DNA of 64,000 nucleotides from Microlunatus flavus (GTDB lineage Bacteria; Actinomycetota; Actinomycetes; Propionibacteriales; Propionibacteriaceae), in the NCBI RefSeq assembly GCF_900110855.1, contig NZ_FOFA01000001.1, forward strand, positions 496,001 through 560,000, written 5' to 3'. Of the stretch, positions 3,486 through 35,132 are shown in pieces. The stretch's first letter is position 1. The number at the start of each line of letters is the position of its first letter. The translations under genes were made by a program, and so were the position numbers. The notes beneath the pieces are model-generated. The model ran no database searches and had not been told where the DNA came from. It saw nothing but the letters and a program-made list of their open reading frames with translations.

Positions 3486-3504
3486 CAGCAGCGCTCGAGG
3501 GCCG

Positions 3505-4545: not shown

Positions 4546-4618
4546 GGTGTCCTCCGCGATCTGTCGGGTGAGAGCGCTGTGGTGCGCGTCAGGTTCTCGG
4601 TGGTGGTGCGGTCGTGCA

Positions 4619-5500: not shown

Positions 5501-5504
5501 GACC

Positions 5505-6545: not shown

Positions 6546-6640
6546 GCGTTCTCCTCAGAGGTCGTACAGGACGGGCGGACGGGGCGACGCCGGTGCGCGC
6601 CGACGGGCCGCGAGGCAGCCGGCGGGACGGTGGCCCGCTC

Positions 6641-11235: not shown

Positions 11236-11250
11236 CGCAGGAGCTCCCGA

Positions 11251-12917: not shown

Positions 12918-13110
12918 CTCGAACCGCTGAGCCCGAGTGCACGTGACGGCCGACAACGGCTTCCGCGTCACGAGAGGAGACGACCACGCAGCATCGCTGT
13001 GCTGGGCGAGGCTCGTACGCCCGGGCTCCTGCGGCAGCAGACCGTCTCGAGCCGGCGGCTCCGACGACGCCCGGCGGCGAGGGCGGCACCGACCCGACAG
13101 GGAGCAGACG

Positions 13111-19071: not shown

Positions 19072-19124
19072 GACGGTGATCTTCTCACCAGGCCCGAGAC
19101 GCACCCCGGGCTGCGTGATCCCGG

Positions 19125-19949
19125 TCACCCCTTCAACCCGCTCCCGAAGCTGCGGATGATGTAGCGCTGGAACACGAAGAAGACGATCAGCACCGGGATG
19201 CTGGCCAGCAGCAGGCCGGCGAAGATCCGTCCCCAGTCGGCGCCGTACTCCCCCGCGAAGTTGTAGATCTGCACGGGCAGCGTCACGTTCCCGGTGCCTC
19301 CCAGGTAGAGCAGCGGCGTGAAGAACTCGTTCCAGATGGCGATGCCGTCGAGGATGACGACCGTCCCCGTCACCGGCAGCAGCAACGGCACGATCACGCG
19401 CCGGAAGACCTGCCAGGACGTCGCGCCGTCGACCCGGGCGGCCTCCTCGTACTCGACCGGCAGCTGGCGCATGAAGCCGGTGTAGAGCAGCACGGTCAGA
19501 GGGAGCTGGATGCCGGCGTTGAAGAGGATCACCGACAGCGGGTTCCCGGCGAGCCCGACCTGGGTGAAGAGCCGGTAGAGCGGGAGCACCCCGATCTGGA
19601 ACGGCACCATCAGGCCCGCGGCGACGACCAGGTAGAGCCGGCCCCCGGTCCGCCCGCTGGACCGCGCGAAGTAGTAGCTCGCCGCGGCGCCCACGACGAC
19701 GAGGATCACCACGGCCGACACGACGATGATCACGCTGTTGACCATCGCGGGGCCGAGCGCGCCGCTCCGCCATCCTTCGACGAAGTTGTCGAGGTAGAGG
19801 CTGGTGGGGGCACCGAGCGGGTTGCGGGCGACGTCGGCCGACGACCGGAAGCCGACCGAGATCAGCATCCACAGCGGGAAGACGAACACGAGCGCCGCGG
19901 CGACCATGACGATCTCGAGCAGGAACGTCCGGGAGCTGTAGCGCCGCAT
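19125..19949 (-). CDS. CUT1 sugar ABC transporter permease (MalG type)
   Basis: A 274-aa permease with about six membrane helices. The EAA loop reads YEEAARVDGATSWQVFRRVIVP, the ATPase-docking element of MalG-type proteins, and the protein ends in FGSGLKG, the typical CUT1 tail. ATG at 19949 overlaps the stop of the partner permease by one base (TGATG). It forms the channel for the importer whose binding protein is at 20898-22235. No ATPase gene is in the operon, so a shared MsiK-like ATPase encoded elsewhere is expected. Confidence 0.92.
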   Translation of the reverse strand: MRRYSSRTFLLEIVMVAAALVFVFPLWMLISVGFRSSADVARNPLGAPTSLYLDNFVEGWRSGALGPAMVNSVIIVVSAVVILVVVGAAASYYFARSSGRTGGRLYLVVAAGLMVPFQIGVLPLYRLFTQVGLAGNPLSVILFNAGIQLPLTVLLYTGFMRQLPVEYEEAARVDGATSWQVFRRVIVPLLLPVTGTVVILDGIAIWNEFFTPLLYLGGTGNVTLPVQIYNFAGEYGADWGRIFAGLLLASIPVLIVFFVFQRYIIRSFGSGLKG

Positions 19950-20866
19950 CAGGACTCGCTCCTGTCGCGCAGCAGCCACATCTGCGCGAAGGCGACGACC
20001 GCGATGAGGATGAACACGATCAGGCCGAGCGCGATGCCGTAGCCGTAGCGGTTGTAGAGGAAGGCCTGGTTGTAGAGCAGCGTGGAGAGCGTCTGGGTCG
20101 CGTAGCCCGGGCCACCCTGCGTCGTCGCGATGACCTGGTCGAACAGCTTGAGCGACGTGATCAGCGAGAGCGTCAGGTTGATGCCCGTGGCCGTCCTGAT
20201 CAAGGGCCAGGTGACGTAGGCGAACCGCTTGAACGGCCCCGCCCCGTCGAGCTCGGCGGCCTCGCCGACCTCCTCGGGGATGTTCTGGATCCCCGCCACG
20301 AAGATCACCATCGAGTAGCCGGAGTACTGCCACACGACCACCGACACCACGCCCCACAGCGCGGTCGACGGGTCCCCGAGCACGTTGACCCCGGAGAAGC
20401 CGAGTGCCGCGGCGATGGTGGAGACGGGTCCGTCCGGCACGTAAAGGAACTGCCAGAGGTAGCCGACGATGATCGGCGTCATGACGACCGGAGCGAAGAG
20501 CAGCGTCCGCAGGATGTTGCGGCTCTTGATCCGCGAGCTGACCCCGAGCGCCAGGGCCAGCCCGATGACGTTCTGCAGGATCGTGATGGACGCGGCCATG
20601 AGCACCGTGTTGCCCAGCGCGGCGAGGGTCTCCGCCGAGGAGAACAGCGCCACGAAGTTGTCCAGCCCGATGAAGTTGATCGCGCTGCCGAGCCCGCTCC
20701 AGTCTGTGAAGGCGTAGTAGACGCCCAGGACGGTCGGGTAGGCCACGATCGCCAGGAAGAAGAACAGCCCGGGCACGGCGAACCAGATCGGGACGCCGTA
20801 CAGGGCCCTGCGTCGGCGCTGCGGCAGCGCGACCGGTGGGGCGGCGGTCAGCGTCTCGCTGCTCAT
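19949..20866 (-). CDS. CUT1 sugar ABC transporter permease (MalF type)
   Basis: A 305-aa permease starting at ATG 20866 with AGGGGG 9 nt upstream. It shows the MalF/UgpA-type opening (PIWFAVPGLFFFLAIVAYP), six predicted helices, and the docking loop VGEAAELDGAGPFKRFAYVTWP. It lies 31 nt downstream of the binding-protein gene and overlaps the second permease gene. Its substrate follows the binding protein: a mono- or oligosaccharide. Confidence 0.92.
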   Translation of the reverse strand: MSSETLTAAPPVALPQRRRRALYGVPIWFAVPGLFFFLAIVAYPTVLGVYYAFTDWSGLGSAINFIGLDNFVALFSSAETLAALGNTVLMAASITILQNVIGLALALGVSSRIKSRNILRTLLFAPVVMTPIIVGYLWQFLYVPDGPVSTIAAALGFSGVNVLGDPSTALWGVVSVVVWQYSGYSMVIFVAGIQNIPEEVGEAAELDGAGPFKRFAYVTWPLIRTATGINLTLSLITSLKLFDQVIATTQGGPGYATQTLSTLLYNQAFLYNRYGYGIALGLIVFILIAVVAFAQMWLLRDRSES

Positions 20867-20897: not shown

Positions 20898-22235
20898 TCA
20901 CGAGTCCCCCAGCGACTTCTGCACGGCGTCCACCGCTCCCTGCACCGTCTGCTTGTCGACCAGCAGGTTCTGGCACTCGGCGATCATCGTCTGCTTGACC
21001 TGGTAGCCGGGCCAGAAGTTCGTCTGCCACAGGGCGGTCTTGCCGGCCTTGTACTTCTCCGTCACGCCCTTGACCTCGTCCGGGACCGGCGTGTCCGCCT
21101 TCGGGGTGTAGGGCAGGCCGTAGTTCGCGGCCGCGGCGGCGGCCAGCTCGGCCGGCTGACCCATGTAGTTGAGGAACGCGGTCGCCGCGTCCTTGTTCGG
21201 CGAGGCGGCGGCGACGCCGTAGGCCGCACCGGTGTTGAGCGTGAGGACCGTGTCGTCCGGGTTCTCCGTGGCCGGGAGCGACCACATGTCCATCTTCAGG
21301 TTCGGGGCGTACTGCTTGATCTGCGGGATCGCCGCGGAGATGACGTCGACGCCGAGCGCCTTGCCCGAGGCGACCTGCTGGATCGCGGCGGTGTCGGAGT
21401 AGCCGGTGACGTCGTCGGCGAAGCAGCCGGCGCCCTGCATCTCCTTGTACTGCTGCAGCGCCTTGGTCAGCGAGCTCTTCCACAGCTCGGAGGTGCTCCA
21501 CTTCACGCTGCCGTCGGCCAGGTGCTCGGCGAACTTCGGGTCCTTGGAGTAGACCAGCGTGTTCGCCAGCTCGAGCGGCACCTCGGTGGCCAGGTAGCCC
21601 GTCTGCGCCCCGAGCGCGATCGGCACGACGCCCTTCGCGCTCACGGTCTTGCAGTAGTCGAGCATCCCGGAGTACGTCGTCGGCGGCTTCACGCCGAGCT
21701 TGGCGGCGGCCTCGGTGTCGTAGACGACGCCGGTGGGGTTCTGGTACGAGTTCAGCGCGAACACCTTGCCCGAGGGGTCCGAGACCAGGCTGTTCGCGGT
21801 GGGGCCGATCTCGCCGACCCAGGGGCTCTGGCTGAGGTCGGCCAGCTCGTCGGCCTGGGCGAGCACCTTCGTGGCCATCGCGTTGCCCGAGCCGCCCCAG
21901 ACGAACATGACGTCCGGCCCGTGCTTGGCGTCGAGCTGGGCCCGGATCTGCGGCTGGTAGGTGTTCGACTGCGCCTGCGTCGTCGTGATCTTCAGCCCGG
22001 GGTTCTGCCCGGTGAACGACTGGATGGCGCCCGGGATGTACGCGGTGCCGCTCAGGTAGCTGACGGTGAGGTTGCCGCTCACCTTCGGCCCCTCGGCGAC
22101 GGAACCGCTCGACGCACCGGAGCTCGGAGGCGTGGTGCTGCAGGCGGCGAGCGCGAGGGCGGCCGCCCCGCAGGAGACGGCGAGCCACCGGCGCGTGTGA
22201 CGCCGCTGGACGGGGTGGGGTTCGGGACGAGACAT
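20898..22235 (-). CDS. Sugar ABC transporter substrate-binding lipoprotein (SBP_bac_1)
   Basis: A 445-aa family-1 binding protein. After an Arg-rich N-terminus, the signal peptide ends at lipobox ALAAC, predicting a lipid-anchored protein facing outside. Later segments such as QPQIRAQLDAKHGPDVMFVW and DAATAFLNYMGQPAEL are typical of CUT1 binders. ATG at 22235 follows a GAGGA site. It lies between the GH-like gene (upstream in the operon) and the permeases, and is preceded by an unusual C-rich repeated leader at 22236-22325. The ligand is unknown; the neighbouring acid-sugar enzymes suggest a uronate-containing or related saccharide. Confidence 0.92.
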   Translation of the reverse strand: MSRPEPHPVQRRHTRRWLAVSCGAAALALAACSTTPPSSGASSGSVAEGPKVSGNLTVSYLSGTAYIPGAIQSFTGQNPGLKITTTQAQSNTYQPQIRAQLDAKHGPDVMFVWGGSGNAMATKVLAQADELADLSQSPWVGEIGPTANSLVSDPSGKVFALNSYQNPTGVVYDTEAAAKLGVKPPTTYSGMLDYCKTVSAKGVVPIALGAQTGYLATEVPLELANTLVYSKDPKFAEHLADGSVKWSTSELWKSSLTKALQQYKEMQGAGCFADDVTGYSDTAAIQQVASGKALGVDVISAAIPQIKQYAPNLKMDMWSLPATENPDDTVLTLNTGAAYGVAAASPNKDAATAFLNYMGQPAELAAAAAANYGLPYTPKADTPVPDEVKGVTEKYKAGKTALWQTNFWPGYQVKQTMIAECQNLLVDKQTVQGAVDAVQKSLGDS

Positions 22236-22325: not shown

Positions 22326-24902
22326 TCAGTGCGCGAGCGCGGGGGTGACGGCCTCCGCGGCCCAGCTGGGCCGGGCGTCGGCGGGCTCCACGAAGTAGGG
22401 CTGGCCGACGAGGTCGGGTCCGAGGCCCGGGAAGCTCTGCGCCGCCCCCGAGGGGAGGTGCAGCGTCAGGTACCACTGGAGCGGATACCGGGCGGTGGGG
22501 TCCTCCGGCAGGTCGACGACCGCCCGACCCCCCTCGCCGACCGGGAGGTCGACGACCGACCAGGACTCGGACTGGTCCAGGGGGCGCGCGTGCAGGCGCA
22601 GCGTCGCGCCCTCGGGCACGCCGACCAGCTCGGCGCGGCCGGCGTCGTCACGCTGGAGCTCGAGGGCGACGGGGTCGACCGGCTCGGGCACCGGGTCGGG
22701 GGCGGGGCCCGGCTCGCCCGCTGCCGCGATCCGGGCGTCGAGGTCCTCGAGCTCCGCGTCGAGCATCGTCAGCCGGTTCGTCCAGTGCCCGCGCTCGGTC
22801 GGACGGTCGCCGAAGGCGAGGTCGTCGACGTAGACGGGGGCGGCCAGGTCGATCACGGCCTGGAGCGCAGTGCGTGACGCCTGGAGCCGTGTCCGGGCGA
22901 GCCCGAGCCGGGCGGCGTCGGACGTCCGGGTGAAGAGCGAGACCTCCACGCCGGCCCGGATCCGCTGGGAGTACATCGTCGCGAGCGCGGCCAGGATCTC
23001 GGCGTCGACGAGCGCCCGCTCCAGCTGCGGCGTCCCCTCCCCACCGGCACGGGCCGCGGCGACGGCCTCGCCGACCTGCGCGGACAGCTGCTCGAGCGTC
23101 CGCGCGTTCTCGATCGGGGTGCGGCGCCCCGAGGCCCGGCCCTGCAGGAGGTCGTCGACGAAGCCGTCGGTGGTGTCGAAGGTCTCGGGGTCGAACGGGC
23201 TCGCCGCCGGCCAGGTGTGCGGCTCGGGGGTGTCGAAGTCGGACGCGAGCTCCTCGGGCCCGTGGAACATCGGCAGGTAGGTGACGACCTCGGGCCAGTA
23301 GAAGTTGTTCGAGGCGCTGAGCCCCTCGGCCACCGTCACCAGGGGCAGCACCCGGCCCGCCGCGGCGAGCGCCCGCTCGACGGCGTCCGCGGCCGGGCCG
23401 TGCTCGGCGACGAGGAACCGTCGCCAGTCGGCCGGGTCCGCCTCGGGGTCGTAGAGCAGACGGCCCCAGAGCCGGTACTCGTAGCGGTACTTCTGCCAGT
23501 CGTCGCTGGCCGAGAGGTGCAGCCGCTCGTCGCGGTAGAGGTCGCGTGGGCCCTCACCGGTCCCCTTGCGGCCGCGGAACGTGAGCGGTTCGCACAGCTC
23601 CACCCCGACCGCGCCGCCGAGCGTCCCCAGGCGCCCGTAGCCCGCGAACACCTGCGGGTCGGCCCAGAGCAGGAACCGCTGGGACCCGGGCCACACGCGG
23701 AAGAGCAGGTCGTGGTCGCGGTCGGTCGCGAGGAAGTCGCCGTAGCCGTAGCGCGTGAAGCGCCGCGCGTTGGTCGTGACGCCGGCGAGGTCGTCACCGT
23801 TGTCGGGACGCGCACGCTCGAGGTCGCGGACCCGTGCCTGGTGGTAAGGCAGCCCCTGGTGCTCGGCCCAGTACTTCGCGGACAGCGTGATGCGCCGCCC
23901 GCTGGCCCCGGCCGCGGCGTCCATCAGCGCGGCGTCGACGCCCTTGGCGTGGAGGTCGATGTCGAGCGGGCGGTCGGCGGCGGCGACGCCGGCGAGGACG
24001 CCCGCCCAGAACTCGTTGCGCCCGTTCTCCGGCACACCGCCCTCGTAGTGCACGCGGAACGTCAGGCCGGCGATGCCCGGGCACTCGCGCAGGAGGATCT
24101 CGAGGCCCGCCGCCGAGTACGCGGCCACCTCCGGGTCGGTGAGGCCACGGACCGGGTAGCGCAGGTCCGGGCTCTCGCCGAGCTCGGGGTGCACGGCGTG
24201 GTTCCACAGGCCGAGCTGGAAGTGGATCCCGCGGCGGGTCGCCTCGTCGCTGGCCAGCCGGAGGGCCGCGAGGTTGGCCGCGCGCTCGGTCGCGTCGACA
24301 CCCTCCACCTCGACGTCCCAGCCGGGGACGTCGACGAGGAAGGGGTACGCGAAGCAGAGGTAGTTGTCCACCACCCCGGGGTCGTGGGAGTAGTTGTACT
24401 GCATCCCCAGCGCCAGCTGGACGCGGTTGACGCGCTGCGTCGCGAGCTCGTCCAGGTAGCCCGTCCAGAAGTCCGGGTCGCGGAACCAGGACAGGTCGAG
24501 CACGTCGCTGGAGAACGACCGCAGCACGCTGCGGACCGGCGTCGCCGGGGTGCCGCTGGTGCTCCACGACCCGGAGAGGACGTCGTCGGTCGCAGCCGCG
24601 AGGCGCACGCGGTCGGCCAGCTCGGTCAGGCCGTACGCCAGCCCCCGCGGGTGAGCGGCGCGGACGCGGACTCCGGAGCCCGTGCTGACGAGCTCGAACG
24701 ACTCGGGGTCGGTCTCCTCGGCCACCGACCCGGCCGCGTCGGAGAGGGTCGCCTCGACCGCGAGGTCCTCGGTCGCACCTCCGTCGCGGACCACGGCGAC
24801 ACCGCGACCGGCGAGCGCCCGCTCGAGCTGGTCGACGGCCCAGGGCACCGGTGCGCCCGCGCTCTCGGCCTGGGTGGTGCGGAGGACGACCGTGTCGACC
24901 AT
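22326..24902 (-). CDS. Large glycoside-hydrolase-like protein (paralogue of 30150-32738)
   Basis: An 858-aa cytosolic protein (no signal peptide) with ATG at 24902 and AAGGAG 6 nt upstream. Layout: an N-terminal alpha/beta domain of about 140 aa ending in RGLAYGLTELADRVR, resembling the accessory domain of GH67 alpha-glucuronidases and GH20-type enzymes; a probable TIM barrel from about 160 to 520 with LALGMQYNYSHD, FQLGLWNHA, FRVHYEGG, DIDLHAKGVD, SAKYWAEHQGLPYHQ and RRFTRYGYGDFL; then a helical region with repeated W/R motifs and a beta-rich C-terminus. The Glu in HYEGG, the Asp in DLHAKG and the Glu/His of AEHxGLPYHQ are conserved with the paralogue and are candidate catalytic residues. 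I cannot place it in a named GH family. It sits between a sugar-acid dehydratase candidate and an importer, so it probably cleaves the imported saccharide. Confidence 0.75.
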   Translation of the reverse strand: MVDTVVLRTTQAESAGAPVPWAVDQLERALAGRGVAVVRDGGATEDLAVEATLSDAAGSVAEETDPESFELVSTGSGVRVRAAHPRGLAYGLTELADRVRLAAATDDVLSGSWSTSGTPATPVRSVLRSFSSDVLDLSWFRDPDFWTGYLDELATQRVNRVQLALGMQYNYSHDPGVVDNYLCFAYPFLVDVPGWDVEVEGVDATERAANLAALRLASDEATRRGIHFQLGLWNHAVHPELGESPDLRYPVRGLTDPEVAAYSAAGLEILLRECPGIAGLTFRVHYEGGVPENGRNEFWAGVLAGVAAADRPLDIDLHAKGVDAALMDAAAGASGRRITLSAKYWAEHQGLPYHQARVRDLERARPDNGDDLAGVTTNARRFTRYGYGDFLATDRDHDLLFRVWPGSQRFLLWADPQVFAGYGRLGTLGGAVGVELCEPLTFRGRKGTGEGPRDLYRDERLHLSASDDWQKYRYEYRLWGRLLYDPEADPADWRRFLVAEHGPAADAVERALAAAGRVLPLVTVAEGLSASNNFYWPEVVTYLPMFHGPEELASDFDTPEPHTWPAASPFDPETFDTTDGFVDDLLQGRASGRRTPIENARTLEQLSAQVGEAVAAARAGGEGTPQLERALVDAEILAALATMYSQRIRAGVEVSLFTRTSDAARLGLARTRLQASRTALQAVIDLAAPVYVDDLAFGDRPTERGHWTNRLTMLDAELEDLDARIAAAGEPGPAPDPVPEPVDPVALELQRDDAGRAELVGVPEGATLRLHARPLDQSESWSVVDLPVGEGGRAVVDLPEDPTARYPLQWYLTLHLPSGAAQSFPGLGPDLVGQPYFVEPADARPSWAAEAVTPALAH

Positions 24903-24913
24903 GCGACTCCTTT

Positions 24914-24940
24914 TTCCGATTGACGGAAGTGTTCTTCCAC
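24914..24940. promoter_or_regulatory. Overlapping IclR-like operator dyads
   Basis: TTCCG-ATTGA-CGGAA (perfect, 24914-24928) overlaps ACGGAA-GTGTTC-TTCCAC (24923-24940). The second has the same plan, ACGGAA-N6-TTCC, as the site at 26205-26222. IclR proteins typically bind GGAA/TTCC dyads, and an IclR gene is in this operon. The sites lie just upstream of the GH-like gene, so internal control of that gene is possible. Confidence 0.5.
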
Positions 24941-24961
24941 TCGTTCTCGACGCTAACCCCG

Positions 24962-24984
24962 GTTGCTTAGCCTCGTCAAGCAAC
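24962..24984 (-). terminator. Intercistronic hairpin at the end of the MR-family gene
   Basis: Perfect 7-bp arms GTTGCTT and AAGCAAC with a 9-nt loop span the stop codon of the enolase-superfamily gene. There is no T-run. It may act as a partial terminator or mRNA-processing hairpin between that gene and the GH-like gene. Confidence 0.35.
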
Positions 24985-26076
24985 TCGGCGACGCGACTCC
25001 TCGCGCTCCGCCGCGGCGAGGAAGGCAGGCTCCAGCTCGATGCCCCAGCCCGGCTCCAGGGGCGCGGCCACCTCGCCGTCGACCACCTGAGGCATCGTCG
25101 AGCACACGCCGCGGGCCCACGGCTCGTCCTCGATGCTCCACTCCTGGGGCTGGAAGCAGGCCGGCATGGCGAGCGCGAGGTGCAGGGTGAAGACGCGCAG
25201 CAGCGAGGCGTTCGCGCAGTGCGGCGTGCAGGGGATGCCCGCCGCCTCGGCGAGCACGGCGACCTTGCGCGCGCGGGACACACCGCCCAGGTAGCCGATG
25301 TCGGGCTGCACGATGTCGACGGCCCGGGTGGTGACCATGCGCACGAACTGCGGCAGCACCGTGTCCTGCTCGCCGCCCGACACGGGGATGTCGAGCGCGT
25401 GGGCGACGGCGGCCGTCGCGTCCAGGTCGGGGAACGGGCAGGGTTCTTCGAAGTGGAAGTACCCGTGCTCCTCCAGCCGACGGCCGACCCGGATGGCCTC
25501 GGCGGCCGTGTACCCGCCGTTGGCGTCCGCGGAGAGGGCGAAGTCGTCGCCGAGCTCGCGGCGCATCAGCGGGATGATCGCCGCCGTGCGCCCCGGAGCG
25601 GCGTCGGTGTCGCGGCCCATCGCCTCGCCGACCCGGATCTTCGCCGCGCGGAAGCCCTGCTCCGCGGCGAGCGCCGCGATCCGCTCGGCCTCGGCCTCCG
25701 GCGTGATCGAGCGCAGCATGCTCGACGCGTACACGGGCACCCGGTCGCGGGCCGCCCCGCCGAGGAGGCGCCAGACCGGCTGGCCCGCCCGGCGCGCCAT
25801 CAGGTCCCACAGCGCGGTCTCGATGCCGCCCACCGCCCGCAGCACGAAGCTCGAGGGGAACTTGTAGCTCTGGAGCAGGAACGCGTCGACCAGCGCCTCC
25901 GCGTCCCAGGCCTCCCGACCCAGGAACCCGCGGGCGACGAAGCCGTGCAGCACCGCTGCGGTCAGCCCGGCCTCGTACGGGGCGGCCTGCCCGACGCCCA
26001 CGTCGCCGTCCTCGGTGGTGACGCGCACGACCAGCAGGGGGCCGCGCCGGAACGTCTCGATCCGGTCGACGATCAT
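24976..26076 (-). CDS. Enolase-superfamily (mandelate racemase/MLE-like) acid-sugar dehydratase candidate
   Basis: A 366-aa protein with the two-domain MR/MLE layout: capping domain to about residue 120, then the (beta/alpha)7 barrel. Catalytic positions are visible: K146-x-R148 (AAKIRVG) at the end of the second strand, metal ligands D184 (SADANGGY), E210 (FEEPCP) and E236 (SGGEQD), and the Asp-His dyad as D259 (QPDIGYLGG) and H286 (TPHCAN). This set fits a Mg-dependent dehydratase or epimerase acting on a sugar acid. The reaction cannot be named; the second basic residue is Arg rather than Lys, which may narrow stereochemistry. ATG at 26076 has GAGGT upstream. It heads the operon with GH-like, importer, IclR and glcDEF genes. 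Confidence 0.88.
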   Translation of the reverse strand: MIVDRIETFRRGPLLVVRVTTEDGDVGVGQAAPYEAGLTAAVLHGFVARGFLGREAWDAEALVDAFLLQSYKFPSSFVLRAVGGIETALWDLMARRAGQPVWRLLGGAARDRVPVYASSMLRSITPEAEAERIAALAAEQGFRAAKIRVGEAMGRDTDAAPGRTAAIIPLMRRELGDDFALSADANGGYTAAEAIRVGRRLEEHGYFHFEEPCPFPDLDATAAVAHALDIPVSGGEQDTVLPQFVRMVTTRAVDIVQPDIGYLGGVSRARKVAVLAEAAGIPCTPHCANASLLRVFTLHLALAMPACFQPQEWSIEDEPWARGVCSTMPQVVDGEVAAPLEPGWGIELEPAFLAAAEREESRRRVA

Positions 26077-26116
26077 CGCCCAGACCTCGGGTCGGAGAGG
26101 TCGGGATGCATAGTTC

Positions 26117-26222
26117 GTGGAATCACCTCTCCACCATACGAGAGAGCGTCTCGGGGCTGTCGACGGTTGACCTCCGCCCGCCCCGGTCCTAGTCTCCGCT
26201 AAGAACGGAACTACTCTTCCGT
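26117..26222. promoter_or_regulatory. Divergent control region between the MR/glc operon and glcB
   Basis: A rightward promoter candidate is TTGACC (26167-26172), 17 nt, TAGTCT (26190-26195). Directly downstream lies the dyad ACGGAA-CTACTC-TTCCGT (26205-26222), well placed to block initiation. Toward the leftward gene, GTGGA-N8-TCCAC (26117-26134) follows a possible -10 TATGGT; it includes the 10-mer GTGGAATCAC that recurs at 12907-12916. The GGAA/TTCC symmetry fits an IclR-family operator. The hexamers and dyads are read directly; function is inferred. Confidence 0.5.
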
Positions 26223-26272
26223 AGAGCGAAACCACCGGCTCGCCGGATCGACGCACACCCCCGAGAGGCGAG

Positions 26273-28453
26273 ATGCGACCAGGACATGACCACGTGGACG
26301 TCGGAGGACTGAGCGTCGCCCGCGAGCTGCACGACTTCGTGGAGACCGAGGCCCTGGCCGGCGTCGACCTCGACCCCCGCACCTTCTGGGCGGGCTTCGC
26401 CGAGCTCGTCGCCGACCTCCGCGGCCCCGGCCGGGCGCTGCTGGCCGAGCGGGACCGGCTGCAGACCGCGCTCGACGTCTGGCACGCGGAGCACCGCGGC
26501 GCGCCCTGGGACGCTGCGGCCTACCGGGCGCACCTCGAGCAGATCGGCTACCTCGTGCCCGAGACGTCCGACGCGGAGGTCACGACGCGCGACGTCGACC
26601 CGGAGCTCGCGAGCGTGGCCGGCCCGCAGCTCGTCGTCCCCGTCACCAACGCGCGCTACCTGCTGAACGCGGCGAACGCCCGGTGGGGATCGCTCTACGA
26701 CGCGCTCTACGGCACCGACGCCCTGCCAGGTGCGGCCCGGCCGGGCGGGTACGACCGGGCGCGGGGGGCGCAGGTGGTGGACGCCGTGCGCGGCCTCCTC
26801 GACGAGCTCTTCCCGCTCGCCGAGGACAGTCACCGCGCCGCCCGTGGCTACACCGTGGAGGACGGTGCCCTGGTGGTGTCGACGGCCTCCGGCACGACGA
26901 CCCTGGCCGACCCCGACGCCTTCCGCGGCTGGCAGGGCGACCCCTCCCAGCCGGAGGTCGTGCTGCTGCGCCGTCACGGCCTGCACTGGGAGATCCGGCT
27001 GGACCCGTCCTCGACGGTCGGGGCCGACGACCCGGCTGGGGTCAGCGACGTGGTCGTCGAGGCGGCGACCACGGCGATCGTCGACTTCGAGGACTCCGTC
27101 GCCGTGGTCGACGCCGCCGACAAGGTTGCCGCCTACCGCAACTGGCTCGGACTGAATCGCGGCGACCTGCAGGCCACCTTCGACAAGAGGGGCCGGCAGG
27201 TGGTGCGTCGGCTCGAGCCGGACCGGACGTACCGCACCCCGGACGGCGAGCTCGTCCTGCCCGGGCGGGCCGTGCTGCTCGTGAGGAACGTCGGGCACCT
27301 GATGACGAGCGACGCCGTGCTCGACGCCGACGGCGACGAGATCGGCGAGGGGATCCTCGACGCCGTCGTGACCGCCCTCTGCGCGGTGCCCGGCCTCGAC
27401 CCGGCGTCCACGACGCGCAACGGCTCCGCCGGCTCGCTCTACGTCGTCAAGCCGAAGATGCACGGGCCGGCCGAGGTGGCGTACACGGTCAGGCTCTTCG
27501 AGCGGGTCGAGCGGCTGCTCGGGCTGGCGCCGGAGACGATCAAGCTCGGCCTCATGGACGAGGAGCGGCGCACGTCGGCGAACCTGGGCGCCTGCATCGC
27601 CGAGGCGTCGACGCGGCTCGTGTTCATCAACACCGGCTTCCTCGACCGCTCCGGCGACGAGATCCACACCGCGCTGGAGGCCGGCCCGGTCGTCCGCAAG
27701 GCCGAGCTGCGCCGCCGGCCGTGGATGGCGGCGTACGAGGACCGCAACGTCGACCTCGGCCTCCGGGCGGGCCTGGCCGGCCACGGCCAGATCGGCAAGG
27801 GCATGTGGGCCATGCCCGACCGGATGGCCGAGATGCTCGAGCAGAAGGTCGCCCAGCCCCTGGCCGGTGCGTCGACCGCCTGGGTCCCGTCGCCCACGGC
27901 GGCGGTGCTCCACGCCCTGCACTACGCCCGGGTCGACGTCCACGCGCGGCAGCGTGAGCTCGCCGGGCGCGCGCCGGCCCCGCTCGAGGAGCTCCTGACC
28001 CCGCCGCTCGCCGACCCGTCGGCGTGGGACGAGCGGGCCCGGCTCGAGGAGGTCGACGAGAACGTCCAGTCGCTCCTCGGCTACGTCGTGCGCTGGGTCG
28101 ACGCCGGCGTGGGCTGCTCGAAGGTCCCCGACGTGCACGACGTCGCGCTGATGGAGGACCGGGCGACGCTGCGCATCTCGAGCCAGCTCCTCGCGAACTG
28201 GCTCCACCACGGGGTCGTCGACGAGGCGGTCGTCCGGGCCTCGCTGCAGAGGATGGCCGCCGTCGTGGACGGGCAGAACGCCGCGGACCCGGACTACCGC
28301 CCCATGGCCACCGACCTCGACGGGAGCATCGCCTTCCGGGCGGCCTGCGACCTGGTCTTCGAGGGTGCGCGGCAGCCCAACGGCTACACCGAACCGATCC
28401 TGCACCGGCGGCGGCGCGAGGCCAAGGCCGCGCGGACGGCGGTGGCCGCATGA
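26273..28453 (+). CDS. glcB: Malate synthase G
   Basis: A 726-aa enzyme, the usual length of monomeric malate synthase G, condensing glyoxylate with acetyl-CoA to malate. The start [21 protein letters not shown] matches the family. The catalytic Arg is R338 in [12 protein letters not shown] and the catalytic Asp D629 in [24 protein letters not shown]-type segments ([14 protein letters not shown]) are also present. ATG at 26273 follows GAGAGG closely. It is divergent from the MR/GH-like/glcDEF operon and overlaps glcG by ATGA, so the cell can assimilate glyoxylate made by GlcDEF. Confidence 0.96.
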
Positions 28454-28899
28454 GCACCGACCACTTCTTCGTCGAGCTCGCCGCGGTCAGCCACGAGCTC
28501 GCCCTGCAGCTCGTGCAGGCCGGGATCGAGGCCGGCGCCGCTGCGGGGCTGCCCGTGGCCGTCGCCGTCGTCGACCCCGCGATGGCCCTGGTCGCCTACG
28601 GCCGCGCGGACGGCACCACGCCGCACAGCGCCGAGACCTGCCGGCGCAAGGCCCAGACCGCGGCGTCGACCCGCCGGCCCACCGGCTGGATGGAGGGTGA
28701 CCTGGCGCTGGCGCTGCCGCCGGCCTCCGGCAACCTGCTGACCAACGTCCTCGGCGGGTTCCCGCTCGTCGTGGGGGAACGGTTCCTGGGGGGCTTCGGG
28801 GTCGCGGGCGGCGCCCCGGCGGTCGACGCGAACATCGCCCGCACCGCCCTGGCCGCCGTCGGCCTGGCCGAGCCCGGGCCGGCTCGGCGCGCGTCGTGA
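28450..28899 (+). CDS. glcG: GlcG/HbpS family heme- or cofactor-binding protein
   Basis: A 149-aa protein of the GlcG/HbpS (DUF336) family, which is found in E. coli inside the glc operon next to glcB. The family pattern is clear: [20 protein letters not shown], then [19 protein letters not shown], a central [10 protein letters not shown], and the glycine-rich [15 protein letters not shown] and [10 protein letters not shown]. The molecular role is unresolved (heme binding is shown for HbpS). ATG overlaps the glcB stop, so the two are coupled. The location beside glcB supports the symbol. Confidence 0.88.
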
Positions 28900-28933
28900 G
28901 GCCCTTCCGCCCGTCGAGCACGGGGACAGCACC

Positions 28934-30040
28934 GTGAGAGCAGCCGTCGTGCGCGAGCGGTCCGGCCCCTTCCGGGTCGAGGAGCTGCGCCGGCCCGAGC
29001 CGCGGGACGGCGAGGTCCTCGTCGAGGTCGCGGCGTGCGGGGTCTGCCACACCGATCTCCACGTCCACGACGGCTCGGTCGCCTTCCCGCTGCCCGCCGT
29101 CCTCGGCCACGAGGTGTCCGGGACCGTGCGGGCGGTGGGGCGCGGGGTCGAGCACCTGTCCGAGGGCGACGCCGTCGTGGGCGCGTTCATCATGCCGTGC
29201 GGCCGCTGCCGCATGTGCACGCGCGGGCGCGAGGAGCTGTGCGAGCCGTTCTTCGCGCAGAACCGGCTCAACGGGACCCTGTACGACGGGACGACGCGGC
29301 TCTTCGACGCCGACGGCGCACCCGTGGCGATGTACTCGATGGGCGGCCTCGCCGAGCACGCGGTGATGCCGGCGCTCGCCGCCGCACCGATCCCAGCGGG
29401 GGCACCCCTCGCCGACTCGGCCATCCTCGGCTGCGCCTTCCTGACCGCGTACGGCGCGCTGGTCCACGTCGGCGACGTCCAGCCGGGTGCCTCGGTCGCC
29501 GTCATCGGCGCGGGCGGCGTGGGGCTGAGCCTGGTCGCCGTCGCGAAGGCGCTGGGCGCCGCGCAGGTGGTCGCCGTCGACCTGGCCGACGACCGGCTGC
29601 GGGCCGCGACCGAGCTGGGGGCGACCGCCACCGTCAACGGGCGTACGCAGGACGTGGTCGCGACCGTCCGCGACCTCACCGGGGGTGGCGCGGACGTCGT
29701 GGTCGAGGCCATCGGCCAGCCGGCGACGTTCCGTCAGGCGACCGAGGTGGTCGCCGACGGCGGGCGCTGCGTGATGATCGGCATCGCTCCGGTCGGCCGG
29801 ACGGCCGAGGTCGAGATCACGCGTCTCGTGCGCCGCAAGATCCAGGTCTGCGGCTCCTTCGGCGGCAGGCCGCGGACGGATCTCGCGCACCTCGGGCGGC
29901 TCGTGGCCGACGGCCGGCTCGACCCGGGCGCGCTCATCAGCCGGCGCTTCGCCCTGGGCGAGGCCGACGAGGCGTACCGCCTCCTCGCGGAGGGTCGGAT
30001 CGTCGGTCGGGCGTTGGTCGAGATGGATCGACCCGGCTGA
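28934..30040 (+). CDS. Zinc-dependent alcohol dehydrogenase
   Basis: A 368-aa medium-chain dehydrogenase. The catalytic zinc ligands are C and H in CGVCHTDLH and LGHEVSG; the structural-zinc cysteines are in CGRCRMCTRGREELC; the NAD(P)-binding Rossmann motif is VIGAGGVGLSL. GTG at 28934 lies 34 nt after glcG with GGGGA upstream, so it is the third gene of the glcB-glcG operon. In this context it could oxidise an alcohol or aldehyde precursor of glycolate, but the substrate is not readable from sequence. Confidence 0.9.
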   Translation: MRAAVVRERSGPFRVEELRRPEPRDGEVLVEVAACGVCHTDLHVHDGSVAFPLPAVLGHEVSGTVRAVGRGVEHLSEGDAVVGAFIMPCGRCRMCTRGREELCEPFFAQNRLNGTLYDGTTRLFDADGAPVAMYSMGGLAEHAVMPALAAAPIPAGAPLADSAILGCAFLTAYGALVHVGDVQPGASVAVIGAGGVGLSLVAVAKALGAAQVVAVDLADDRLRAATELGATATVNGRTQDVVATVRDLTGGGADVVVEAIGQPATFRQATEVVADGGRCVMIGIAPVGRTAEVEITRLVRRKIQVCGSFGGRPRTDLAHLGRLVADGRLDPGALISRRFALGEADEAYRLLAEGRIVGRALVEMDRPG

Positions 30041-30106
30041 GAGCCGGCCCTCCCTCCTTCTCGAGATGCCGCACGATGCGGCGCGGAGGAGGGGACGCAT
30101 CCGTCA

Positions 30107-30140
30107 GGAGCGCGCCGCACCACTCGGTGCGACGCGCTCC
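30107..30140. terminator. Strong bidirectional hairpin terminator
   Basis: GGAGCGCG pairs perfectly with CGCGCTCC, and inside it CGCACC pairs with GGTGCG around an ACTC loop, with one mismatch (c/a) between the two stems. It lies exactly between the convergent alcohol dehydrogenase and GH-like genes. A smaller GCCGCA-CGA-TGCGGC hairpin is at 30068-30082. Confidence 0.75.
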
Positions 30141-30149
30141 CGCTGGCGC

Positions 30150-32738
30150 TCAGGCCGCCGGTGCGTCCGGGATCCCCCGGTCGCCGTGCGCGGTGCTGTG
30201 CACCACCACGTACGGCTGCTCGGACAGCTCGGGCCCGAAGCCTGGGTGGACGCCGCGGCGCCCGTCGCGGTGGACGGTCTCGAAGAAGTACATGAGCGGG
30301 TAGGTCGTGGCCGTGTAGTCCGCCGGGACGCTGGCCGAGAAGCCCCGCTCGTCCTGGCTCGCCTTGGCCGAGCGGAAGGCCTGCGACTGGTCGACGTGAC
30401 GGTAGTGCAGCGTCACGTCGGCGAGCCCCTCCTCCGCCGCGGCGTCGAGCCGGAGCACCAGGTCCTCCCCGCGCACGAAGGCGGCGGGAGCCTCGTGGCG
30501 CAGCGACCCGCCCACGAAGCGGGCGGGTGCGGCGACCGGCCGGGCGTCGACGTCGCCGCCGCCCGCGGCCTCGAGCTCGGCCCGCAGCGCCGCGACGTCC
30601 GCGTCGATGCCGGCGACGCGCGTGGACCAGTGGCCGTGCTCGCTGCTCTCCGGACCGAAGCGCAGGTCGTCGACGTAGACGCCGGCGACCACGGTCGGGA
30701 TCCCGGCGTACGCCTCGCGCGCCAGCGCGTAGTCGTCGAGGGCCTGCACGAGGTGGCCGGGATCGCGGCTCTCCTGCCACGCCGCGTACGCGGTGGCCGC
30801 GCGGAACTTGCCGGCGAAGAACGCGCCCAGGCGGCTGAGCACCTCGAGGTCGACGAGCGTGCGCCGCAGCGTCACGTCGTCCGGCGAGCCCTCGGCGGCG
30901 GTGCGGACCGCGCCGAGCGCCGGTGCGGCGTCGTCGACCATCCGCTGCAGCCAGCCAGCCACCTCGAGCGGGGTGTACCGGCCGGACTGCGTGCCGCCGG
31001 CGAGGTCGGCCACGAACTCGTCGATGCCGTAGAACATCGTCGGGTCGAAGGGGCTGACGGTGCCCCAGACCGGCGGCGCGACGGTGTCGTGGGCGTAGTG
31101 CGCGGGGTCGACGTCCTGCGACAGCGGCAGGTTCACGTACATCTCGGGCCAGTTGCCGTTGTTGGAACCGCCGACGCCGTGGACCACGGTGACGAGCGGC
31201 AGCACGCGGCTCAGCGGCGACAGCGCCTCCTCGACCGAGGTGGCCAGGTCGCCGTACTCCGCGCGCAGGAAGCGCTGCCACACCTCGGGACGCGTGTCCG
31301 GGTTGTGCAGCATCCGACCCCACAGCAGGTACGTGTAGGCGTGCTTGCGCCACTCCCGGCCGCCGAGCTGCAGGGCCGGGTCGGCGTACGGGTCCCGGCC
31401 GCCCTTGCGCCCGCTGCCCTTGCGGCCCTTGAAGAAGAGCGGCTCGCAGAAGTCGACGCCGCGCGAGCCGGCGAAGGTGGAGAGCCGCCCGTAGCCCGAC
31501 GCGATGGCCGGGTCTCCCCACAGCAGCAGCTTCTGGGTCCCGGGCCACACCCGGAACATGAGGTCGACGCTGCGGTCCTCGGCGAGGAAGTCGCCGTAGC
31601 CGTAGCGGGTGAAGCGGCGCGAGAACTCGGTGATGCCGCGCATCTCGTGCCCCGGCGGGATGGGCTTCGCGGCCTCCTGCGGCCGGATCGAGGTCTGGTG
31701 GTAGGGCAGGCCCATGTGCTCCGCCCAGTACTTGGCCGACAGCACGGGGCGCAGGCCGGGCTTGGCGACCGCGTCCAGCAGCGCCTGGTCGACACCCTTC
31801 GCGTGCATGTCGATCTCCAGCGGCCGGCCCGAGGACGACGCGGCGGCGAAGACCTTGTCCCAGAACACCTCGTGCTGGAAGTCGTGGATGCCGCCCTCGT
31901 AGTGCACGCGGAAGGTCAGGCCCTCGACCTCGGGAACGGCCTCCAGCAGCTGTCCGAGCGCCGCCGCGGAGTAGTCGGCGTGGGTCTCGGGCGTCAGGCC
32001 CGTGATCGGGTAGCGGTGGACGGAGTCGCGGCCGTAGTCGTACGCGTGGTTCCACAGGCCGAGTTGGAAGCTCATGCCTCGACGCCGCGTCTCGGCGGCG
32101 ATGTGCTGCAACGACGCCAGGTTGCGCGCCCGCTCGCCCGCGTCCACCCCCTCGGCCCGGACGTCCCAGCCCGGCACCTCCAGCAGGAAGGGGTAGGCGA
32201 AGCAGAGGTAGTTGTCGGTGGCCCCGTGCGGGTCGGCGCCGTAGTTGTACTGCATCCCGAGCGCGAGGTGGAAGCGGTTGAAGCGCGACACGGCCAGCCA
32301 GTCGAGGTACTCGGCCCAGAAGCCCCGGTCGTGGAACCATCCGAGGTCCTCGTCGACGCTCGAGAACGACCGGACGATGCCGCGAACGGGAACCGCGGGT
32401 TCCTCCGCCGTGCCGACCGTGTCGCGGACGGCCGTGCGGAGGTCGGCGCCCGCCCGCACCTGGGCGGCGAGCTCGGTCAGGGCGTAGGCGAAGCCGCGCC
32501 CGCCGCCCGCTCGCAGGACCGCCGCTCCCCCGTCGGCCTCGACCCGGTACGCCTCGTCCGGGCTCTCGTCGAGCTCGAGGCGGAGCAGGTCCTCGGGCCC
32601 CGGCTCGGTCCCGGACCCGAGCCGTCCGCCGCGGGCGGCGACGGCGTCGGTGAGCTGCCCCGCGGCCCAGGCGACGACGGGGTCGGCGGCGAGCGGCGCG
32701 GGGAGGTGGAGGTGGTCCGACGAGGTCGGGGCAGGCAT
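30150..32738 (-). CDS. Large glycoside-hydrolase-like protein (paralogue of 22326-24902)
   Basis: An 862-aa cytosolic protein colinear with the 858-aa protein at 22326-24902. Shared blocks are RGFAYALTELAAQVR, LALGMQYNYGAD, NYLCFAYPFLLEVPGW, FQLGLWNHAYD, FRVHYEGG, EIDMHAKGVD, SAKYWAEHMGLPYHQ, RRFTRYGYGDFL, FRVWPGTQKLLLWGDP and FKGRKGSG. The same acidic and His residues are conserved, so both copies look active. ATG at 32738 has AAGGA 8 nt upstream. It is the last gene of the second importer operon (beta-propeller, two permeases, binding protein). I infer a hydrolase or lyase for an imported glycan; the family is not one I can name. Confidence 0.75.
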   Translation of the reverse strand: MPAPTSSDHLHLPAPLAADPVVAWAAGQLTDAVAARGGRLGSGTEPGPEDLLRLELDESPDEAYRVEADGGAAVLRAGGGRGFAYALTELAAQVRAGADLRTAVRDTVGTAEEPAVPVRGIVRSFSSVDEDLGWFHDRGFWAEYLDWLAVSRFNRFHLALGMQYNYGADPHGATDNYLCFAYPFLLEVPGWDVRAEGVDAGERARNLASLQHIAAETRRRGMSFQLGLWNHAYDYGRDSVHRYPITGLTPETHADYSAAALGQLLEAVPEVEGLTFRVHYEGGIHDFQHEVFWDKVFAAASSSGRPLEIDMHAKGVDQALLDAVAKPGLRPVLSAKYWAEHMGLPYHQTSIRPQEAAKPIPPGHEMRGITEFSRRFTRYGYGDFLAEDRSVDLMFRVWPGTQKLLLWGDPAIASGYGRLSTFAGSRGVDFCEPLFFKGRKGSGRKGGRDPYADPALQLGGREWRKHAYTYLLWGRMLHNPDTRPEVWQRFLRAEYGDLATSVEEALSPLSRVLPLVTVVHGVGGSNNGNWPEMYVNLPLSQDVDPAHYAHDTVAPPVWGTVSPFDPTMFYGIDEFVADLAGGTQSGRYTPLEVAGWLQRMVDDAAPALGAVRTAAEGSPDDVTLRRTLVDLEVLSRLGAFFAGKFRAATAYAAWQESRDPGHLVQALDDYALAREAYAGIPTVVAGVYVDDLRFGPESSEHGHWSTRVAGIDADVAALRAELEAAGGGDVDARPVAAPARFVGGSLRHEAPAAFVRGEDLVLRLDAAAEEGLADVTLHYRHVDQSQAFRSAKASQDERGFSASVPADYTATTYPLMYFFETVHRDGRRGVHPGFGPELSEQPYVVVHSTAHGDRGIPDAPAA

Positions 32739-32809: not shown

Positions 32810-34123
32810 TCAGGAGCTGGCGAGAGCCTTCTTGCCGTCGGCGAGGAAGGTGTCGATCGCCTTGGCGGCGGACGCCCGCTCGAAGGCGATGTCCTGGCTC
32901 GCCTTGAGCAGCAGGTCGGCGACCGCGGTGTTGGCGGCGGGCGCGGTGCCGGGTGCCGGCGTCGACTTCGTCAGCGCCATCTCGGTGAAGTCAAGGACCT
33001 TCTTCTCGTCGGGCGTCAGGTCGCCGGAACCGGCGAGCGCCTCGCGACCGGCCGTGGACGCGGGCGGCCCGCTGATCAGCCGCAGCGTGAGCGCGGCCTC
33101 CTTGCTGTTGACGAACCAGTTGAGGAACTTGGCTGCCTCGTCGGCCTTGGCGCTGCGGGCGTTGAGCGAGAGGTAGCTGCTGGCGGCCGGGTAGTGCGGG
33201 TAGTCACCGCTCTTGGACGCTCGCGGGACGAGCGTGATCTGGACGACGTCGTCGGTCAGGCTCTGGAAGCCGCCGGAGAGGTTCGGCGTCGAGATCCGGC
33301 CGAGCGGCGCCTTCTTGGTGACCAGGGGCGAGTTCGGCCAGTCGCCGTACTCGGCCTGGGCTGCGATCTCCGCTGTGACGCAGCCGCCCGCGGCGCGCAG
33401 CTTGCTCCAGTAGGCGAACCAGTCCTGCAGGGTGTCGCGGCTGAAGCCGAAGTCGGTCGCGCCCGAGTAGAGCTGCTCGCCCCGGGACCGGACGAAGAGC
33501 TCGAGGAAGGCCGGGTCGCCGCTGGGGTCCTCGGCGCCGAAGTACTTGCCCTTCGACGCGTCGTGCACCTCGGTGGCGTAGTCGGCGTAGTCGTCCCAGG
33601 TCCAGGTGCCGTCCGGCGCCTTGAGCCCGATCTCCTCGAGCACCGTCTGGTCGTAGCCGATGCCGTTCGTCGCGGTGGCGACGGGCAGGCCCAGCTGCTT
33701 GCCGTCGACCTGGCCCTGCACGAGGAGGCTCTGGTCGAACTGGTCGCTCTGCACGGTGCCCGGCACGTAGCCGTCGAGCGCCTGCAGCGCGCCGGCCCGG
33801 CCGTACTGCGCCATCCGGGGGGAGTCGATGTTGATCACGTCGGGGGCGTTGCCGCCGGCCATCTGGGTGGCGAGCTTGTCCCAGTAGCCGGCGGTCGCCG
33901 TGCCCTCGAACGCGATCTTGGCGTCGGGGTTCAGCTTCATGTAGGTGTCCGCCAGGCTTCCGCGGATCTTGAGCTTGGTCGGGTCGCCGTAGCTGCTGAA
34001 GCGGATGGCGTCGGCCTCCGCCCCACCAGGTCGGATGGCGGAGCAGGCGCTGACGAACGGCGCCGAGACGGCGGCGGCGAGACCGGCCCCGAGGAGGGTG
34101 CGGCGGCTGATCGGTCGGCCCAT
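32810..34123 (-). CDS. Sugar ABC transporter substrate-binding lipoprotein (Tat-type signal)
   Basis: A 437-aa SBP_bac_1 protein. The N-terminus carries SRRTLLGAG, a twin-arginine motif, followed by a hydrophobic stretch and lipobox VSAC, so export of a folded lipoprotein through Tat is likely. ATG at 34123 is selected by AAAGGAG 8 nt upstream. Conserved binder segments include MAGGNAPDVINIDSPRMAQY and DEAAKFLNWFVNSKEAA. It serves the importer made by the two permease genes immediately upstream in the operon. The ligand is unknown. Confidence 0.92.
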   Translation of the reverse strand: MGRPISRRTLLGAGLAAAVSAPFVSACSAIRPGGAEADAIRFSSYGDPTKLKIRGSLADTYMKLNPDAKIAFEGTATAGYWDKLATQMAGGNAPDVINIDSPRMAQYGRAGALQALDGYVPGTVQSDQFDQSLLVQGQVDGKQLGLPVATATNGIGYDQTVLEEIGLKAPDGTWTWDDYADYATEVHDASKGKYFGAEDPSGDPAFLELFVRSRGEQLYSGATDFGFSRDTLQDWFAYWSKLRAAGGCVTAEIAAQAEYGDWPNSPLVTKKAPLGRISTPNLSGGFQSLTDDVVQITLVPRASKSGDYPHYPAASSYLSLNARSAKADEAAKFLNWFVNSKEAALTLRLISGPPASTAGREALAGSGDLTPDEKKVLDFTEMALTKSTPAPGTAPAANTAVADLLLKASQDIAFERASAAKAIDTFLADGKKALASS

Positions 34124-34232
34124 GGTGAGAACTCCTTTGTCTGCGGGCGAGCGGGTGGGGATGGAGCGGGTGGGGACGGAGCGGTGTGGTGGGGGTGGGT
34201 GCGGTCGCCGGGGAGCCCGCCGCACGTACCGT
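34124..34232 (-). repeat. C-rich spacer with 15-nt repeat before binding-protein gene
   Basis: On the plus strand GAGCGGGTGGGGA is repeated exactly at 34149-34161 and 34164-34176, with a degenerate third copy at 34179-34191, giving a strict 15-nt period; G/T-rich sequence continues to about 34205. The transcript therefore has C-rich units ahead of the binding-protein cistron, as at 22236-22325 in the other importer operon. Confidence 0.6.
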
Positions 34233-35132
34233 TCAGCCCTTGAGGCCGGTGGTGGCGATGCCGTCGACGATCCGCTTCTGCGCGACGAGGAAGACGACGA
34301 AGGTGGGGACGAGCGAGAGCGCCGACATGGCGAGCAGCTGGCCGTAGGAGGAGGTGCCGGTGGCGTCGACGAAGCGACGCAGCGCCACGGGCACGGTCTC
34401 GGCGTAGGGCGAGGTGAGGTAGATCAGCTGGCTGAAGAAGTCGTTGTAGGTCCAGATGAAGGTGAAGATCACCGTCGTCACGAGAGCCGGGCCCATCAGC
34501 GGCAGCAGGATCTTGGTGAAGATCCTGATCTTGCCGCAGCCGTCGATCATGGCCGCCTCGTCCAGCGTCCGCGGGATGGTGCGGATGAACTGGACCATCA
34601 GGAAGATGAAGAACGCGTCGGTCGCGAGGAACTTCGGCACGATCAGCGGCAGGTAGGTGTTGACCCAGCCGAGGTTGAAGTAGACGACGTACTGCGGGAT
34701 GAGCAGCGCGTGCGCCGGCAGCATGATCGACCCGAGCATGAGGGCGAACCAGAGCCTCTTCAGGCGGAAGTCGAGCCGGGCGAACGCGTACGCGGTCAGG
34801 GTGCAGGCGACGACGTTCCCGATCACCGCGAAGAGCGCGATGATCGTCGAGTTCAGGTAGAACTGCGTGAAGGTCGGCGTCGTGGCGTTCCACCCGCTGA
34901 CGTAGTTGCGCAGGTCGAGGCTGGAGGGGAACGGGTTCAGCTCGGAGAAGATCGAGCGGTCCTCCTTGAAGGAGCCGCCGACCATCCAGATCAACGGATA
35001 GACCATCACGATCGAGCCCAGCAGCAGCACCAGGTGGATCACCCAGCGGCGCTTGCCGCGGACCAGATGGGTGGGCGCCTCGCTCGCGCCGGGCAGGGTC
35101 TGGTTCTGAATCGGCACAGCCATCTGCGTCAC
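34233..35132 (-). CDS. CUT1 sugar ABC transporter permease (MalG type)
   Basis: A 299-aa permease with six predicted helices, docking loop LDEAAMIDGCGKIRIFTKILLP and C-terminal IATTGLKG. Two starts are possible: GTG at 35132, which overlaps the upstream stop (GTGA) and has GAGGA 7 nt before it, and ATG at 35123 without a good ribosome site; the GTG is preferred. It partners the MalF-type permease at 35129-36133. No ATPase gene is present in this operon either. Confidence 0.9.
   Translation of the reverse strand: MTQMAVPIQNQTLPGASEAPTHLVRGKRRWVIHLVLLLGSIVMVYPLIWMVGGSFKEDRSIFSELNPFPSSLDLRNYVSGWNATTPTFTQFYLNSTIIALFAVIGNVVACTLTAYAFARLDFRLKRLWFALMLGSIMLPAHALLIPQYVVYFNLGWVNTYLPLIVPKFLATDAFFIFLMVQFIRTIPRTLDEAAMIDGCGKIRIFTKILLPLMGPALVTTVIFTFIWTYNDFFSQLIYLTSPYAETVPVALRRFVDATGTSSYGQLLAMSALSLVPTFVVFLVAQKRIVDGIATTGLKG

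Follow-up and report, generated by a model that had tools for sequence, protein, structure and literature searches.

Twin GH138-related, glycosidase-like proteins of Microlunatus flavus and the association of their family with sugar importers and glycolate/glyoxylate genes

Two proteins encoded in the actinobacterium Microlunatus flavus, here called twin 1 and twin 2, belong to a little-studied, glycosidase-like protein family that is related to GH138 yet lies outside it by curated score. The family is strongly associated with genes of glycolate and glyoxylate metabolism, a coupling that is as yet unproven at the level of a pathway. The twins were found in a window of 64,000 nucleotides (the whole stretch of DNA that was analysed; contig NZ_FOFA01000001.1, positions 496,001 to 560,000), whose relevant features are collected in Table 1. 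We give an even chance to the reading in which the twins are cytosolic exo-glycosidases of a remote sister family of GH138 that feed a route ending in glycolate/glyoxylate. It builds on the computed family relationship, the modelled fold of twin 2, one match of a catalytic Glu, the layout of the operons and the co-occurrence of the family with malate synthase G and a propeller-like protein; from these we infer hydrolysis, a specificity for alpha-linked and acidic sugars, and the order of the steps.

Table 1. Features of the window that are discussed in the text (positions are those of the window).
Feature	Coordinates	Strand	Remarks
Opp-type importer	7636..12768	-	SBP_bac_5, permeases, ATPases; relatives adjoin family genes elsewhere
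D-2-hydroxyacid dehydrogenase	12937..14106	+	2-Hacid_dh_C; relatives near family genes elsewhere
GlcF-like iron-sulfur subunit	14094..15521	-	CCG and Fer4 domains, gene order
GlcE-like subunit	15547..16755	-	FAD_binding_4, gene order
GlcD-like glycolate oxidase subunit	16784..18280	-	TIGR00387 484 bits, below cut-off 568
IclR-type regulator	18277..19128	-	IclR_C, HTH_IclR
CUT1 permease 2, twin 1 operon	19125..19949	-	BPD_transp_1
CUT1 permease 1, twin 1 operon	19949..20866	-	BPD_transp_1; start 20866 or 20881
CUT1 binding protein, twin 1 operon	20898..22235	-	SBP_bac_8, SBP_bac_1; start possibly internal, 22082
Twin 1	22326..24902	-	858 aa, GH138-like putative glycosidase; member of the 35-protein alignment
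Enolase-superfamily (MR/MLE) protein, sugar-acid dehydratase-like	24976..26076	-	MR_MLE_C 189 bits; opens the twin 1 run
Malate synthase G (glcB)	26273..28453	+	TIGR01345 1004 bits, above cut-off 989
GlcG/HbpS-like protein	28450..28899	+	PF03928 89 bits (cut-off 25); NF007275 48 bits, below 246
Zinc alcohol dehydrogenase	28934..30040	+	ADH_N, ADH_zinc_N; in the malate synthase G run
Twin 2	30150..32738	-	862 aa, GH138-like putative glycosidase; AlphaFold pLDDT 90.3
CUT1 binding protein, twin 2 operon	32810..34225	-	SBP_bac_1
CUT1 permease 2, twin 2 operon	34233..35132	-	BPD_transp_1
CUT1 permease 1, twin 2 operon	35129..36133	-	BPD_transp_1
Propeller-like protein	36135..37259	-	Opens the twin 2 operon; no Pfam match
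GntR/FCD regulator	37550..38317	+	Divergent from the twin 2 operon

The twins share 45% identity (378/838 positions, 597 bits in BLASTP), a likeness beyond chance, and a search of the genome up to E 10 found no third copy. An initial annotation made from the letters of the window had reported both open frames, which lie where it placed them, and a set of shared blocks (LALGMQYNY, FQLGLWNHA, FRVHYEGG, HAKGVD, and AEHxGLPYHQ), all of which were found in both proteins. It had also given each twin its own binding protein and two permeases, and the SBP_bac_1 and two BPD_transp_1 matches expected of a CUT1 importer were indeed recovered in both operons. On the whole its observations stood and its interpretation stood in part, the glycolate connection having been overlooked. 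Linked genes on either side are missing from the coordinates that it covered, namely the enolase-superfamily gene, glcDEF, malate synthase G and glcG (the last ones lying partly within its span) and the propeller gene of the twin 2 operon.

The description of the twins as members of a poorly described family agrees with the HMM searches, as no curated Pfam or NCBIfam model scored above its own cut-off for either protein. An N-terminal GH20b-like accessory domain was detected below the Pfam threshold (21.5 and 21.0 bits, cut-off 26.1), the GH20 catalytic domain model was unmatched in both twins and GH67 gave no Pfam or NCBIfam match at E 0.1. The NCBIfam alpha-d-galacturonidase model NF049878, which in our reading represents GH138, gave 23.1 and 19.7 bits (cut-off 1300). 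The same model touches 34 of 35 aligned family members, always below the cut-off; this alignment contains both twins and 33 proteins taken from the loci of one scan of a genome collection (32 loci), the near copies L009 and L030 being omitted.

Profile and fold comparisons point to GH138 as the nearest solved relative of the twins. The profile built from the 35 proteins matched BPa0997 (PDB entries 6hze, 6hzf, and 6hzg) with E 3e-26, the match being divided between two flanking stretches, followed by an O-GlcNAcase at E 1.5e-4; the profile was needed for this result, the sequence of twin 2 alone having zero PDB matches. BPa0997 and BT0997 are taken here to be GH138 enzymes on the basis of PDB titles. 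The AlphaFold model of twin 2 (pTM 0.93) is of the barrel type, and a Foldseek search with it returned five GH138 chains at the top (E 8e-25 to 7e-24, TM to target 0.58–0.72), with 6hzf as the best (E 8e-25), so that the overall predicted fold of twin 2 agrees with that of GH138. GH84, GH67, GH20, and GH115 ranked behind among the 50 matches listed (E from 1e-11 upwards, TM to query 0.29–0.42); the twins resemble these families in fold and in the GH20b-like domain below cut-off, and differ from them in that no model of theirs exceeds its cut-off. The GH-type architecture proposed earlier is thus borne out by the accessory domain, the barrel-type model and the fold matches. The family, which the initial annotation could not name, does have a nearest known relative in GH138, with GH84, GH67, GH20, and GH115 more distant, and nothing was found in the twins themselves that points to its alternative suggestion of lyases.

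The relationship to GH138 is a distant one. The alignment of the 35 proteins was matched by hhalign to three actinobacterial GH138-type proteins over 674 columns (E 4.8e-30), yet the identity between the twins and GH138 is about 14% and the centre of the barrel is not confidently aligned by sequence search. Genes much nearer to GH138 exist separately in three of the ten relatives' genomes searched (865–937 bits, still below 1300), and the one that was compared, L057, aligned with BPa0997 over 812 residues at E 4e-194. A tree (leaving out the copy of genome G125 in L076 and the copies of G107, which are the same as L016) splits the twin family from the GH138-type group with full support, the joining branches being 5 and 2 changes per column long. 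These separate genes and the split in the tree indicate two distinct groups that exist side by side. The twin family also differs from GH138 in occurring in Actinomycetota without an obvious signal and mostly with importers. No GH138-type gene was found in a 296-genome phylum sample at E 1e-20, and a literature search, thin on subscription journals, found nothing on the twin family. BT0997 is an alpha-1,2-galacturonidase acting on rhamnogalacturonan II (RG-II), where the GH138 substrate is GalA of chain A (PMC7939467).

Four residues (E281, K336, Y337, and E340 in twin 2 numbering) are invariant in all 35 aligned members. E340, the Glu of AKYWAEH, aligns in MAFFT with E361 of BPa0997, the Glu of KYNGE, at which the chain listed as E361S differs (E to S). 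Three of six hhalign settings gave the same match and the other three stop short of the site. The KYxxE motif is in this way common to the twins and GH138, in which E361 is presumably a catalytic residue and E294 presumably the second catalytic Glu. In three alignments E294 falls two or three residues before the invariant E281; the stretch is ambiguous, the second catalytic Glu of the twins is not placed with certainty, and E281 may be the counterpart of E294. Taken together, these alignments make hydrolysis by two carboxylates likely for the twins, the identity of this pair with that of GH138 being not proven. A third, shorter relative (711 aa) is encoded in Kribbella rubisoli (L060, 784-2916), and in this protein Ala replaces the Glu of KYxxE.

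A simple hydrophobicity scan detected no obvious signal peptide in either twin, which agrees with the cytosolic site assumed in the initial annotation. Other members start differently: the acidobacterial proteins of L036 and L038 have a twin-arginine-like start, those of L039, L040 and one copy in L033 have a hydrophobic start, and a marker panel found no importer genes within reach in these five regions. Import followed by action in the cytosol is therefore a suitable reading for most actinobacterial members but not for the family as a whole. Among 43 family-gene regions, CUT1 importers occur in 21, Opp-type importers in 18 and either type in 34, a tally in which M. endophyticus is counted twice (L016; L081 plus L082), N. 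carnea is represented by two strains (L030, L031) and G125 by three regions, and which covers positions 8001 to 46000 of the window. The constant pairing of homologues with CUT1 importers that had been envisaged is, by these numbers, common and not constant.

Two lines of the family are represented in the window. Twin 1 clusters with copies from Amycolatopsis, Saccharopolyspora, and Nocardia and with one of G125 (support 100/100), and its binding protein and permeases accompany relatives in L027 and L029, in the same order and with 55–74% identity. Twin 2 clusters with Kribbella and Microlunatus copies (support 87/89), and its permeases have counterparts of 74–80% identity in six Kribbella regions. 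Two separate lines in the tree, each with its own importer, support the prediction that the twins act on different substrates, in keeping with the related but different imported saccharides proposed earlier. The window also encodes an Opp-type importer, which may serve this system as its third. Its genes share 57–73% identity with genes that accompany the family in Blastococcus, Modestobacter, Prauserella, Microbacterium, and Nocardia, the binding protein showing lower values (38–42%).

The surroundings of twin 1 are rich in genes for glycolate and glyoxylate. A minus-strand run comprises the dehydratase-like gene, twin 1, the binding protein, the two permeases, the IclR regulator, glcD, glcE, and glcF, with overlaps of 4 bases between permease and IclR genes and between IclR gene and glcD, given the chosen starts. 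A divergent plus-strand run comprises malate synthase G, the glcG-like gene and the zinc alcohol dehydrogenase, the latter exceeding no NCBIfam cut-off among the matches listed. In E. coli-type operons the gene order is glcDEFGB; the window likewise has glcDEF-like, glcG-like, and malate synthase G genes, and differs in that the set is split into two runs, is interleaved with glycosidase, importer, and dehydratase-like genes, and has a GlcD below the equivalog cut-offs (for NF008408, 540 against 897 bits; for TIGR00387, see Table 1). With such scores the GlcD-like protein could oxidize another 2-hydroxy acid. The best equivalog for the enolase-superfamily protein was gluconate/galactonate dehydratase (158 bits, cut-off 750), and the arabinonate dehydratase model gave 144 bits, also under its cut-off; these scores and that for MR_MLE_C (Table 1) were computed on 24976-26202, the start at 26076 having been chosen afterwards.

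Malate synthase G is present in 11 of the 22 family-bearing genomes examined (10 with a match above cut-off) and was not found in the other 11 at E <= 1e-50, so the link to C2 metabolism is not universal. In nine of the 11 a copy lies less than 18 kb from a family gene (0.7–17.6 kb), where a crude uniform placing would give about 0.2 by chance; seven of these nearby copies are above cut-off, that of G553 is below it and that of G152 is cut by a contig end. The two genes are 674 kb apart in G561 and on different contigs in G562. In a family-level sample of 147 genomes, malate synthase G occurs in all five with a full-length family gene vs. 16 of the 142 others (p 4e-5; G029, which has a partial weak match only, was counted among these others), and in a genus sample of 15 genomes in 5/5 with the family vs. 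0/10 without (p 3e-4), p-values that overstate independence because most relatives compared are actinobacterial and kin by descent. A Blastococcus region (L026), which like L017 stands outside the 22-genome count, also has malate synthase G, and glcDEF adjoins family genes in G059, G107, and L023 as well.

These data have to be weighed against the view that the twins are GH138-like glycosidases and the glcDEFGB-like genes mere neighbours, i.e., a plant-glycolate operon carried in the same accessory island and metabolically unlinked. Glycolate is a common exudate of plants and algae, half of the family-bearing genomes were without malate synthase G, six Kribbella regions hold the twin 2 type and its importer with no glc gene within reach, and malate synthase G is missing from the single Kribbella genome searched (G155). 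We regard such an arrangement as unlikely, if far from negligible, since the proximity is seen again, with differing gene orders, in Propionibacteriaceae, Microbacteriaceae, Geodermatophilaceae, Nocardiaceae, and Devosiaceae, and since glcD overlaps by 4 bases with the IclR gene that precedes it in the twin 1 run.

The propeller-like protein is conserved and accompanies family genes as well. It is 66–71% identical among relatives vs. 38–51% for the twin-like proteins of the same regions, occurs in four of the 147 genomes, all of them within the five that have full-length family genes (p 3e-7), and directly adjoins a family gene in six of the eight regions that carry it. Its first Foldseek match is the oligogalacturonate lyase 3pe7. 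PL22 was nevertheless rejected as its identity, as the protein has no Pfam match (E 1e-4), the profile found no PL22 chain in the PDB, the model is weak (pLDDT only 64), and many other propellers score similarly.

Members of the family occur in Actinomycetota, Acidobacteriota, Armatimonadota, and Devosia, on rhizobial megaplasmids, in a roseobacter, and in haloarchaea; a search of 396 genomes sampled from the phylum (E 1e-30) recovered the source genome alone. Eleven plasmid records contain the family (seven annotated as hypothetical and four without annotation). Enolase-superfamily genes, searched with the sequence of the window, occur in 10 of the 43 regions, including those of Rhizobium (one gene) and Haladaptatus (three genes), and a gene of this type annotated as epimerase stands directly beside the family gene in Marinovum, outside the panel count. 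The marker panel also gave 2-hydroxyacid dehydrogenase in 11/43 regions, glycerate kinase in 3/43 and a lactate-racemase-like gene in 1/43. Lar_N and nickel-insertion (LarC-type) genes are found in Nocardia L031, genes of the same clusters in L030 and L035, and malic enzyme adjoins the gene set of G107. Elsewhere GH2, GH3, GH5, and GHL6/GH42-like partner genes lie beside family genes. Of 131 unknown neighbour proteins, 57 were chosen for a scan; among 25 of the 59 resulting families listed, one of the 57 was a DHDPS-family member and no recurrent aldolase was seen.

Some further observations concern single regions. A Haladaptatus plasmid (L110, 9574-29008) holds three family-like genes, three MR/MLE enzymes and one GH88 together. 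In L021, L022, and L077 two Amidohydro_2-type proteins and a Rieske-type protein (Pfam-confirmed in L077 only, which also has enolase-superfamily genes) are encoded near family genes. In the window, three aldo-keto reductases, an aldose epimerase and a 7-bladed lactonase lie in one stretch (1739-7633), which suggests sugar oxidation, and an arylsulfotransferase-like protein (PF14269) is encoded at 44303-45556.

If the twins do feed a glycolate/glyoxylate route, each CUT1 importer would take up an oligosaccharide or glycoside, from which the adjoining twin would cut off a sugar at the end of the chain by means of two Glu, in twin 2 E340 and probably E281; as in GH138, this sugar would most likely be acidic and alpha-linked. 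The enolase-superfamily enzyme encoded in the twin 1 run would dehydrate the released sugar acid, or an acid formed from the released sugar, and breakdown of the dehydrated product would yield glycolate or glyoxylate at the end. GlcDEF would then oxidize glycolate to glyoxylate, and malate synthase G would combine glyoxylate with acetyl-CoA to give malate.

The sugar removed might instead be neutral or a pentose, the C2 acid arising by a Dahms-type route from pentonate through dehydratase, aldolase, glycolaldehyde, glycolate, and glyoxylate to malate. The sub-cut-off matches of the enolase-superfamily protein to arabinonate (144 bits) and gluconate/galactonate (158 bits) dehydratases would suit such a route, as would the stretch 1739-7633, with its aldo-keto reductases, lactonase, and aldose epimerase, and the GH2, GH3, GH5, and GHL6/GH42-like partners seen elsewhere. 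It is nonetheless improbable: GH138 acts on GalA (PMC7939467), and the sole pair of DHDPS-family and aldehyde dehydrogenase genes among the matches listed, in L029, seems by its neighbours to belong to another pathway.

Apiose catabolism gives glycolate or glycolaldehyde, and an alternative apiose route proceeds by isomerase, kinase, and aldolase. That the substrate bears apiose, as RG-II chain A does, and that glycolate comes from its breakdown is highly improbable, in spite of RG-II chain A being the GH138 substrate (PMC7939467), as a RuBisCO-like protein is absent from the source genome and from 12 more of the 22 genomes. A route through this protein was rejected also for the nine genomes that have one, where it lies on another contig or more than 500 kb from family genes.

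Returning to the glycolate/glyoxylate route, we propose tentatively, with the balance somewhat against it, that a new glycosidase family, the conserved propeller and a sugar-acid dehydratase form a saccharide pathway not described before, from which carbon would emerge as glycolate/glyoxylate and pass by way of malate synthase G into the TCA cycle. If this is true, the substrate would hold a residue giving a C2 hydroxy acid, such as a glycosylated 2-hydroxy acid or a sugar acid with unusual branching or oxidation. The twin family extends the GH138 fold to apparent import-and-hydrolyse systems, and the company of glycolate and 2-hydroxyacid genes points, in a way open to test, to a saccharide of plant or microbial origin yet to be identified.
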